From Saccharopolyspora rosea (GTDB taxonomy: Bacteria > Actinomycetota > Actinomycetes > Mycobacteriales > Pseudonocardiaceae), in NCBI RefSeq assembly GCF_025643595.1, contig NZ_CP102826.1, positions 186,001 to 250,000 on the forward strand: a DNA stretch of 64,000 nucleotides, written 5' to 3'. Each line of letters opens with the position of its first letter. Position 1 is the first letter of the stretch. Shown piece after piece: positions 54,390 to 57,184 of the stretch. The position numbers and the translations under genes are program-made. The notes beneath the pieces are model-generated. The model was not told the origin of the DNA and did not search any database. It was given only the letters and a program-made list of their open reading frames with translations.

Positions 54390-54902
54390 ATGGTCGGGAT
54401 CAACCTCCGCACCGGCCCCCGCCCCGGGGACCTCGGGACGGTGCTGGCGATGCACGGCGAGTGCTACGCGCGCGAGCACGGTTTCGACGAGCGCTTCGAG
54501 GCCCACGTCGCCCACGGCCTCGCCCGGTTCGCCGCCGCGCTCGGTGCAGCGCGCGACGCCCCGGCCGCCCGCGAGCCCGGTCGCCTGTGGCTCGCCGAAC
54601 GCGACGGCGAGGTGGTCGGCACCATCGCGCTGACCGACGAGGGCGACGACGTCGCTCAACTGCGCTGGTTCCTGGTCGACCCGTCGGCTCGCGGCAGCGG
54701 CGTGGGACGGCGGTTGCTGCGCGCCCTGCTGGACCACGCGCGCCGGGAGCGGTTCGCGCGGGTGGTGCTGTGGACGGTGAGCGGCCTGGACGCCGCGGCG
54801 CGCCTCTACACCGACGCCGGGTTCCGCCGCGCCGAGCGGCACCCGGTGCGCCAGTGGGGAGCGGAGCTGGACGAACTCCGCTACGACCTCGATCTGGCCT
54901 GA
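54390..54902 (+). CDS. GNAT family N-acetyltransferase
   Basis: A 170-residue acetyltransferase. The acetyl-CoA pyrophosphate loop is PSARGSGVGRRLLRALLDHAR (about residues 92-112), after the beta strand VAQLRWFLVDP. VLWTVSGLDAAARLYTDAGFRRAERHPV is the typical C-terminal region. Substrate unknown. Likely repressed by the divergent TetR protein. Confidence 0.92.
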   Translation: MVGINLRTGPRPGDLGTVLAMHGECYAREHGFDERFEAHVAHGLARFAAALGAARDAPAAREPGRLWLAERDGEVVGTIALTDEGDDVAQLRWFLVDPSARGSGVGRRLLRALLDHARRERFARVVLWTVSGLDAAARLYTDAGFRRAERHPVRQWGAELDELRYDLDLA

Positions 54903-55021
54903 TACTCCCCGAGCCTGGGAACCGGCTGGGAACCCGTTGCGAGGTGACCGCACGATTCGCGGCGCTCAGGAATCGGCTGCGGACGTTCAGCGAATTTCCA
55001 GGGTTCTCTGCGGGAAATCGC

Positions 55022-55051
55022 GTCGAATCGGCCCGTCGGCCTGCCTAGATT
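55022..55051 (+). promoter_or_regulatory. Possible promoter of the proline-rich peptide operon
   Basis: TAGATT (55046-55051) is a good actinobacterial -10, with GTCGAA (55022-55027) as a weak -35 at 18-nt spacing, 61 nt before the first peptide ATG. The DNA from 54980 to 55110 is less GC-rich than the neighbourhood. Confidence 0.45.
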
Positions 55052-55112
55052 CGGTGGTGTCGACGGCGGAAAGCCGCGGCGGAAACGAAAAGTACCGACT
55101 CTGGAGGAAAAC

Positions 55113-55202
55113 ATGGGTTTCCCGCTTCCCCTGCCCCCGAAGCACCCGCGTCCGGTTCCCCCGAAGCACCCGCGTCCGCCCTTCCCCGGTGAGCGCCGCT
55201 GA
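55113..55202 (+). CDS. Proline-rich basic peptide 1 (29 residues)
   Basis: A 29-codon ORF with an excellent ribosome site (CTGGAGGAAAAC). It starts MGFPLPLPPKHPRP and then repeats PPKHPRP; about 45 percent Pro, with Lys/Arg/His and no acidic residue except one Glu near the end. It is a paralogue of the next ORF (shared M-[GA]-F-P-L-P-L-P start). No family is known to me. HPRP/PRPP units resemble insect proline-rich antimicrobial peptides, which is a compositional likeness only. Confidence 0.65.
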   Translation: MGFPLPLPPKHPRPVPPKHPRPPFPGERR

Positions 55203-55231
55203 AACGAACTGACGAATTCGAGGAGATGATC

Positions 55232-55324
55232 ATGGCTTTCCCGCTTCCGCTCCCGAAGAAGAAGCACCACCCCCGTCCGGCCCCGAAGCCCGCGCCGTTC
55301 CCGGCGCCCGCGCCGCGCCGGTGA
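55232..55324 (+). CDS. Proline-rich basic peptide 2 (30 residues)
   Basis: A 30-codon ORF beginning 29 nt after the first, again with a strong ribosome site (GAGGAGATGATC). It starts MAFPLPLPKKKHHPRP and ends in Pro/Ala-rich PAPAPRR; net charge strongly positive, no acidic residue, no cysteine. Same N-terminal motif as peptide 1, so the pair likely arose by duplication. A hairpin and then an ABC exporter gene follow. Confidence 0.65.
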   Translation: MAFPLPLPKKKHHPRPAPKPAPFPAPAPRR

Positions 55325-55330
55325 TCGACC

Positions 55331-55367
55331 GGGAGGGCCCGCGGTCCGCTCGACCGCGGGCCCTCCC
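55331..55367 (+). terminator. Hairpin between the peptide genes and the ABC exporter
   Basis: Perfect 16-bp arms (55331-55346, 55352-55367), 5-nt loop, 6 nt after peptide 2. No T tract. As a partial terminator it would give abundant peptide mRNA with limited read-through into the exporter, a layout known from bacteriocin operons. Confidence 0.75.
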
Positions 55368-55387
55368 GCTCTGCGAGGAGGTCGGAG

Positions 55388-57184
55388 TTGGCCCAACCGG
55401 GAGTGCGCGAGATCTTCCGCCGGTTCTGGCCGTTCCTGCACCGAGACCGGCGAAAACTGCTCGTCGCGGCGGTGTTGTTCGTGGTCGCGGCGGTGATGGA
55501 GACGGTCGCGGTGTGGATGTTCAAGGTCCTCACCGACGACGCGCTGACCACCGGGAAGCTGTCCGCGTTCTGGCAGCCGGGGATGACCTGGCTCGGCACG
55601 GCCGTGGTGGGCGCCGCGGCGTCCTTCGGCGGTGCGTACCTGACGTCGAGGGCGGCGGAGAAATTCCTGCTGGAACTGCGGGCGCACGTTTTCGACCACG
55701 TTCAGGAACTGTCGCCGGACTTCTTCGCGCGGCGCGGCACGGGTGATCTCGTGGCGCGCCTGTCGGGAGACGTCGAATCCGTCGAAAGACTCGTCGGATC
55801 CGGGATGCTCGAAACTGTTTCGGCGTTGTTCAGCGTGGTGCTCTACGCGGGCGCCGCGCTGTACCTGAGCTGGGACCTGGCATTGCTGGCCCTGCTGTTG
55901 GCCCCGGTTTTCTGGCTGGTCGCCCGGAAGTTCTCGCACCGCATCCGCACGGCGTCCCGGCAGGAGCGCGACGCCAACGGCGCGATCAGCTCCGTGGTGG
56001 CCGAGGGGATCGCCAACGTCGAGCTGGTGCAGTCCTGCAACCAGCAGCGCAGCCAGGGCGAGCGGCTGCACCGGGAGTCGTTGCGCTGGTTCGGCGCCAA
56101 GCTGGCCGAGGCGCGCCTGTCGGCGCTGTACGCCCCGGTGGTCACGGTGCTGGAGACGGTCTGCGTGCTGCTGATCATCGGTGTCGGCGTGTGGGAGATC
56201 TCCGCGCAGCGCATCACCATCGGTGGCCTCATCGCGTTCGCCGCCTACCTCGGCTACCTGTACCAGCCGTTGCAGCAGCTGGGGCAGATCACCATGGCGG
56301 TCACCGCGGCCCGCGCGGGTTCGGAGCGGCTGATCGAGCTGATGGACCAGCGCCCGGCGGTGGCGGACACCGGCCGCGCGTCGCTCCCGGCTCGGCGCAG
56401 CAGGGGAATCCGGTTCGAGCGCGTCGGTTTCGGCTACCCGGGAGCGGACCGCCCCGCGCTGGCGGACTTCGGTCTCGACGTGCGCCCCGGCGAGTTCGTC
56501 CTGGTCACCGGCCCGAGCGGCGCGGGGAAGTCGACGCTGGCCAAGTTGCTGCTGCGGTTCTACGACCCGCACGCGGGACGCGTGCTGCTCGACGACGTCG
56601 ACCTGCGCGACCTGCCGCTGCGCGCGGTGCGCGACTCGATCGCCCTGGTCCCGCAGGAGGTCGCGATCTTCCACGGCACGGTCGCGGACAACATCGCTTT
56701 CGGCGCCCCGGACGCGACGCGCGACGAGATCGTGGCGGCGGCCCGCGAGGCGGACGCCGACGAGTTCGTCCGCCGCCTCCCGGACGGCTACGACACGGTC
56801 ATCGGCGAACGCGGCGCCCTGCTCTCCGGCGGCCAGCGCCGCCGACTGTCGATCGCCCGCGCGGTGCTGCGCCGCGCCCCGGTGCTGGTACTGGACGAAC
56901 CGACCAACGGCCTCGATCGCGCGTCGACCCGCCGGGTCGTCGAACCGCTGCGCCGCCTGGCCCGCACCCGCACCACGATCCTGATCAGCCACGACCTGGA
57001 CCTGGCCGCCGAAGCGGACCGCGTGGTGGTGCTCGACGGCGGCCGAGCGGCGTCCCCGCCGCGCCCGGAGCGGACCGGTTTCGCCGGAGATCTGTTCGGG
57101 CCCGACGACGCCCCGACCGTCCGGCTCCGCCCGCCCTGGCTGGCGACCCTGACGAATCCGGGCATCGCCCGGGGCCGCCGCTGA
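55388..57184 (+). CDS. ABC exporter (fused membrane and ATPase domains)
   Basis: A 598-residue half-transporter of the MsbA/HlyB type. The membrane domain has six helices (about 24-45, 65-88, 143-160, 162-180, 255-272, 278-295). The ATPase has Walker A GPSGAGKST (375-383), Q-loop VPQE, signature LSGGQRRR (479-486), Walker B VLVLDE (499-504) and H-loop ISHD. No C39 peptidase domain, so it would export without cleaving a double-glycine leader. TTG 55388 follows GAGGAGGTCGGAG; GTG 55403 is an alternative. It is the only protein downstream of the peptide genes. Confidence 0.9.
   Translation: MAQPGVREIFRRFWPFLHRDRRKLLVAAVLFVVAAVMETVAVWMFKVLTDDALTTGKLSAFWQPGMTWLGTAVVGAAASFGGAYLTSRAAEKFLLELRAHVFDHVQELSPDFFARRGTGDLVARLSGDVESVERLVGSGMLETVSALFSVVLYAGAALYLSWDLALLALLLAPVFWLVARKFSHRIRTASRQERDANGAISSVVAEGIANVELVQSCNQQRSQGERLHRESLRWFGAKLAEARLSALYAPVVTVLETVCVLLIIGVGVWEISAQRITIGGLIAFAAYLGYLYQPLQQLGQITMAVTAARAGSERLIELMDQRPAVADTGRASLPARRSRGIRFERVGFGYPGADRPALADFGLDVRPGEFVLVTGPSGAGKSTLAKLLLRFYDPHAGRVLLDDVDLRDLPLRAVRDSIALVPQEVAIFHGTVADNIAFGAPDATRDEIVAAAREADADEFVRRLPDGYDTVIGERGALLSGGQRRRLSIARAVLRRAPVLVLDEPTNGLDRASTRRVVEPLRRLARTRTTILISHDLDLAAEADRVVVLDGGRAASPPRPERTGFAGDLFGPDDAPTVRLRPPWLATLTNPGIARGRR

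Follow-up and report, generated by a model that had tools for sequence, protein, structure and literature searches.

A probable actinobacterial peptide-export system with small, low-complexity and highly variable cargo

Aureocin A70, garvicin KS and the cereucins are encoded by loci that each specify several leaderless short peptides, and in the studied cases, genes for secretion and immunity lie nearby (PMC6131525). Known leaderless bacteriocins have a common sequence within sub-groups and tested activity (PMC6131525). In Actinomycetota, the aureocin A53-like leaderless bacteriocins described in PMC11580447 are 51–52 aa long and contain 3–5 Trp residues. The system described here resembles the multi-peptide loci in having short peptides and an adjoining transport gene, the latter in a search that was built on the exporter; by reading, the window peptides have no double-glycine leader, though a conserved head is present in the peptides. 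In aureocin A70, the transporter is a single ABC protein. Unlike known leaderless bacteriocins, the peptides of the present system are low in complexity and differ drastically from one another around a single exporter family. With the aureocin A53-like group they have the phylum, small size and, in some peptides, Trp content in common, but the Gly-Trp peptides consist of WG units strung together and the Pro-rich peptides lack Trp altogether. No prior description of such a peptide/exporter system was found in openly licensed PubMed Central text.

The window (the whole 64-kb stretch of DNA that was analysed) belongs to a genome of 6.56 Mb assembled as one contig. Peptide 1 (55113–55202, plus strand) is 29 aa long (MGFPLPLPPKHPRPVPPKHPRPPFPGERR), is preceded by the ribosome site GGAGGA, and has orthologues; its codon pattern is specific to exporter loci. 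Its tandem paralogue, peptide 2 (55232–55324, plus strand; MAFPLPLPKKKHHPRPAPKPAPFPAPAPRR), is 30 aa long with the ribosome site GAGGAG, to which an alternative in-frame ATG at 55226 lies too near. The two ORFs of 29 and 30 codons and the 29-nt gap between them (55203–55231) are thus as an earlier, sequence-only reading had placed them, and its description of Pro/Lys/Arg/His-rich peptides with almost no acidic residues holds as well: E27 of peptide 1 is the single acidic residue across both. Their P, R, K and H composition is arranged in HPRP and PRP units, a double-glycine leader is absent by reading, and searches of NCBIfam and Pfam returned 0 families for either peptide at E 1.

Between peptide 2 and the exporter lies a hairpin (55330–55368, plus strand), with a perfect stem of 17 bp (55330–55346 paired with 55352–55368), one more than the 16 bp first reported, and a 5-nt loop. 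There is no T-run on its 3′ side and it is absent from the T-run terminator scan, so it does not qualify as an intrinsic terminator of the canonical kind; folding of the spacer gives an MFE z of -3.6. The ABC exporter itself (55388–57184, plus strand; 598 aa) starts at a TTG codon preceded by GAGGAGG and fuses one membrane domain with one ATPase domain (Pfam ABC_membrane, PF00664, and ABC_tran, PF00005), with Walker A (GPSGAGKST), LSGGQ and Walker B (VLVLDEP) motifs that are intact by reading. As the sequence-only reading had it, the exporter lacks a C39 domain (no match to peptidase C39 in a Pfam scan at E 1), which sets it apart from C39 double-glycine secretion systems. Its domain order is that of MsbA and other ABCB-type exporters (TIGR02203 over positions 1–545 of 572, 419.8 bits), but the score does not reach the curated cut-off, which is 602 bits.

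Upstream of the peptides, an alignment of nine loci of the Pro-rich clade reveals a conserved, promoter-like pattern (54988–55051, plus strand in the window), consisting of the direct repeat CAG-N8-CAG (54988–55001, an 11-bp period), GTCGAA (55022–55027), 18 nt, and TAGATT (55046–55051). The CAG-N8-CAG element keeps a near-constant position relative to the first peptide (-128 to -118) in 11/11 Pro-rich loci, and anywhere within 220 nt upstream in 24/114 other loci, while the GTCGA-to-TAG-TT pattern occurs in 9/11 Pro-rich loci. A simple scan found no sigma-70 match in this region; the element is reminiscent of the repeats with an 11-bp period to which regulators of the OmpR or SARP type bind. 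An antisense, mechanically called ORF of 703 aa spans the locus (54881–56992, minus strand); such ORFs are common in GC-rich DNA and it was not taken as a gene.

Orthologous exporters, with 71–73% identity, define 11 loci, five in the genus (window included) and six in a second genus. An upstream peptide starting with M[GAP]F is present in all of them, and the reading frame is kept in 11/11 with both ends in one frame, so that the refuting condition named in the sequence-only reading, frames lost or broken where the exporter persists, did not arise in these loci. A pair does not always precede the exporter: a peptide is there in each of the 11, but only three loci carry two (the window, L010 and L013) and eight carry one, for which reason a constant two-peptide system was rejected. 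Flanking gene clusters are common to the six orthologous loci checked (window, L251–L255), across the two genera. The codon pattern ATGGSNTTYCCNVTNCCNNTNCC for M[GA]FPxPxP gave six matches in 5/22 genus genomes, all adjoining the exporter, compared with 0 matches for a reversed control pattern in the same 22 genomes; the five genomes with the MxFPxPxP pattern are exactly those that hold the window-type exporter. Similarly, Cys-Phe-Arg peptides occur within the genus only adjoining their exporter (E below 1e-9). In L013 (G005:C1 near 6198300), the exporter orthologue is apparently frameshifted near residue 67, through decay or sequencing error, and both peptides are intact.

The exporter belongs to a larger family. 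A protein search returned 722 relatives at E 1e-150 or better, and among the 120 matches listed of these 722, the nearest named relatives of the window exporter are from Saccharopolyspora. Counting the source genome in each case, at least one member was found in 16/22 genus genomes at E 1e-100, in 77/390 genomes of the family at E 1e-125 and in 18/394 genomes drawn across the class at E 1e-135; about 15 matches from the family-genome search, mostly the weakest (E 3e-145 to 4e-136), lie outside the sample of loci. A single-exporter search of genome contigs yielded mostly generic ABC proteins, and the 80 loci from it (L039–L118) enter no count. The source genome has three family members, after which the next exporter drops from E 1.2e-156 to 6.7e-82. 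The other two members there (L031 and L119) are accompanied by Cys/Arg/Trp and Gly/Trp peptides. Two further exporter members, L210 and L219, contain an internal TGA.

Just upstream of the exporter, a peptide ORF of extreme composition was assigned in 127/135 member loci. The assignments were picked by eye and not blind, and fixed-rule counts are therefore given beside them below. They comprise 133 peptides, 131 of them distinct, of 25–74 aa (median 44). Three of the remaining loci are cut close upstream (L130, L146, L190), and five had no assigned peptide despite upstream DNA (L149, L171, L175, L179, L213), among which L171, L175 and L179 have a similar candidate ORF in common. Besides the Pro-rich type, the cargo includes Gly/Trp repeats, His/Arg/Ser tails, GFSGRCFSRRFCSRRF peptides, and Cys/His-rich, Tyr/Gly-rich, Asp/Arg-rich and Ala/Lys/Pro peptides. 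K+R exceeds D+E in 114/131 distinct peptides; the reverse holds in 12/131, and some peptides are Cys/His-rich, features that suit cationic antimicrobials poorly. Cys/His-rich peptides with CHECKP-type motifs (L168, L181, L183, L192, L160, L163) are possibly metal-binding.

Known families offer little purchase on these sequences. Of 50 peptides scanned, drawn from 60 N-terminal types, none matched NCBIfam or Pfam at E 0.01, and by this measure none resembles a known leaderless bacteriocin sub-group. A Gly-Trp query, low in complexity, gave no homologues at E 0.001 among 2974 candidates. The Ala-Lys-Pro type has 71 relatives at E 0.01 in public protein sets, the named ones being Streptomyces 'hypothetical protein' entries and one that UniRef labels 'Histone H1'. 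What recurs is a common design with a conserved head: over the 60 N-terminal types, the share of F, I, L and V is 25% in residues 2–12 and 7% elsewhere, and an [FLI]-x-x-[LIV]-x-P motif occurs in 10/60 types against a shuffled mean of 0.6.

A fixed detector, requiring a start codon, a ribosome site, 22–80 aa and low normalised entropy, finds such ORFs without any choice by eye. At an entropy of ≤0.85 it fires upstream of the exporter in 111/130 family loci versus 5/30 and 6/30 in two control exporter families, and at ≤0.75 in 69/130 versus 0/30 and 2/30. This comparison covers 130/135 loci with corrected offsets; the control windows begin at match starts, so that part of them may be coding DNA, and since the controls are two orthologue sets they do not amount to 60 independent tests. 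Within the same loci, the detector fires in 107/129 upstream regions, versus 32/129 on the opposite strand and 13/70 downstream, a count made with uncorrected offsets that left out L130, L143, L217 and loci with less than 600 nt upstream. Selection, too, points to the annotated frame. In 13/13 groups (71 ORFs), pN/pS is below 1 (range 0.09–0.79), and the annotated frame has the lowest value of the three (pooled 0.62 versus 1.01 and 1.18), although alignments built in frame 0 tilt the comparison towards it. The ratio is only mildly below 1 in two groups, at 0.78 for the Gly-Trp peptides and at 0.79 for the peptides of the window's genus, where tandem copies are counted. The window ORFs are real genes, with support for selection on both peptides.

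Peptide type and exporter descend together. On an exporter tree of 70 rows, three coarse peptide classes need six changes, versus 31.1 with shuffled labels, a contrast that is inflated by near-copies; the tree holds the 70/135 loci in which the exporter is complete and a peptide was assigned, with L013, L138 and L210 left out for a stop in the stretch that was read. The Gly-Trp class requires one change, on a weakly supported branch (42/3). Since peptide class follows the exporter tree, the type of cargo is for the most part inherited along with the exporter and occasionally rebuilt. Beyond the exporter, no family is widely common to non-syntenic loci among the ORFs of at least 90 aa in 21 neighbourhoods of about 15 kb, as compared by crude ORF calling; a few other gene clusters are common to two or three neighbourhoods. 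A modification-enzyme (RiPP) cluster was accordingly rejected on present evidence, as the peptides, unlike those of RiPP clusters, have no widely common modification enzyme beside them in these 21 neighbourhoods. Neither was an immunity gene recognised among the same ORFs; immunity could come from the exporter itself. In 5/21 neighbourhoods (L259, L260, L261, L267, L268) there is a sensor-kinase-like gene close to the exporter, and four of these also have a response-regulator-like gene, calls that were made by reading the proteins of two loci (L259, L267) by eye.

Hairpins after the peptides are a feature of many loci in the family. Downstream of the last peptide, within 90 nt, 50/127 loci have a perfect stem of at least 12 bp (mean of 0.0 in dinucleotide shuffles) and 77/127 one of at least 8 bp (shuffle mean 3.95), while the 90 nt before the first peptide contain stems of at least 12 bp in 0/126 and of at least 8 bp in 13/126. 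Stems of at least 12 bp within 300 nt before the exporter occur in 53/130 members, versus 1/30 and 1/30 in the control families. The 50/127 loci with no perfect 8-bp stem after the last peptide include some with imperfect stems, such as L010, which this count misses; the folding z of the spacer is below -2 in 83/127 loci and above -1 in 13/127. Between tandem peptides, in gaps of only 15–60 nt, no stem exceeds 4 bp (6/6 loci). In six chosen Gly-Trp loci, all 13 stem pairs hold in every sequence, two of the 13 varying on both sides and 11 being invariant. The position of the hairpin would suit a partial terminator or a processing site.

Taken together, the evidence for a dedicated pair of peptide and exporter is strong, and we favour a dedicated actinobacterial peptide-export system with hypervariable cargo, of which the window pair is one member (probability roughly 0.78). 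That the exporter moves the peptides is what linkage, co-descent and layout point to. In such a system, one or two tiny peptide genes would be transcribed and translated, and the strong hairpin after the last of them would probably end or trim the majority of transcripts and thereby keep production of the exporter encoded behind it lower. An ABCB-type half-exporter, presumably acting as a homodimer, would then pump the finished peptides out, with no cleavage of a double-glycine leader during export. In many peptides, the short, relatively hydrophobic head may serve as the export signal. The tail behind it, of low complexity, mostly cationic and probably disordered, would have been remodelled in one clade after another. 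Outside the cell, antagonism of the bacteriocin type seems the most likely role, a first guess that follows from charge and turnover; alternatively, the peptides may act at the surface, in the matrix or as signals. More tentatively, and with somewhat less than even odds, we picture a common exporter chassis with exchangeable head-plus-tail cargo, the tails having been remade many times over (Pro, Gly-Trp, His, Asp-Arg, Tyr, Cys-His). Such peptides would make up a large class of secreted weapons or surface molecules that has no name, and its Pro-rich branch would be the bacterial equivalent of the proline-rich antimicrobial peptides (PrAMPs) of animals.

The main rival remains attenuation, in which the ORFs would be leader peptides, the progress of the ribosome on Pro, Trp or His codons would set the hairpin and thereby exporter expression, and the exporter would move some other substrate. 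A short ORF, a strong hairpin and an ABC transporter gene are an attenuator layout, and the stem in the window begins 5 nt after the last stop codon. The fact that two peptide types never occur away from the exporter within the genus fits attenuation and exported cargo equally. Against leader peptides stand the constraint at the amino-acid level over whole ORFs in 13/13 groups and the tandem paralogous ORFs in 6/127 loci. Pro, Gly-Trp, His, Asp-Arg, Tyr and Ala-Lys swap between clades, so that no single sensed tRNA explains the peptides, and the window hairpin, unlike the terminators of attenuators, has no T-run. We regard attenuation as unlikely. Chance ORFs in GC-rich spacer DNA might be invoked because short GC-rich ORFs are common and the detector still fires in some regions of every control set (32/129, 13/70, 5/30 and 6/30), but the frame, linkage and pattern tests contradict this, as do the 71 public relatives of the Ala-Lys-Pro type; we rejected chance, which is hardly credible given the detector controls, the frame test and the codon-pattern linkage.

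If the peptides are exported, they may still serve the producer, in surface, matrix, metal-binding or signalling functions, rather than act as weapons. We hold such uses to be a serious possibility, though not the favoured one: the Cys/His-rich, Tyr/Gly-rich or Asp/Arg-rich cargo of some clades, the lack of a recognised immunity gene among ORFs of at least 90 aa, and the two-component-like pair near some loci agree with them, while the turnover of sequence between clades and the net positive charge of 114/131 peptides look more like antagonism, although these are both weak arguments. Narrower still is the proposal that the Pro-rich pair are bacterial PrAMPs that enter cells and bind the ribosome, like apidaecin or oncocin. 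The likeness to insect and mammalian PrAMPs drawn in the sequence-only reading is borne out for composition, namely high Pro plus Arg/Lys with PRP motifs, in the Pro-rich clade only. Insect PrAMPs are made from pre-pro-polyproteins, unlike the window peptides, and sequences this short support no claim of homology. As an explanation of the whole system the analogy fails because Pro-rich is just one of many cargo types. In the source genome itself, Gly-Trp and Cys/Arg/Trp peptides accompany the sister exporters. Across 19 Pro-rich relatives, invariance is limited to M1 and a single Pro. Ribosome targeting by the window pair seems quite improbable to us, and any antimicrobial activity is a suggestion drawn from charge and turnover.

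Should the favoured reading, a dedicated peptide-export system, hold, many actinobacterial genomes would contain a class of secreted peptides outside Pfam and NCBIfam, as suggested by the absence of matches among the 50 scanned. An exporter family that handles cargo this diverse would allow a direct test of how ABC exporters recognise their substrates, and the peptides are short enough for synthesis. The exporter is also a handle for finding the remaining peptides, given 722 relatives and peptides checked in 135 loci. Three of the exporters (P0087, P0104 and P0132) carry the public label 'protein-tyrosine-phosphatase', which is evidently a misnomer.
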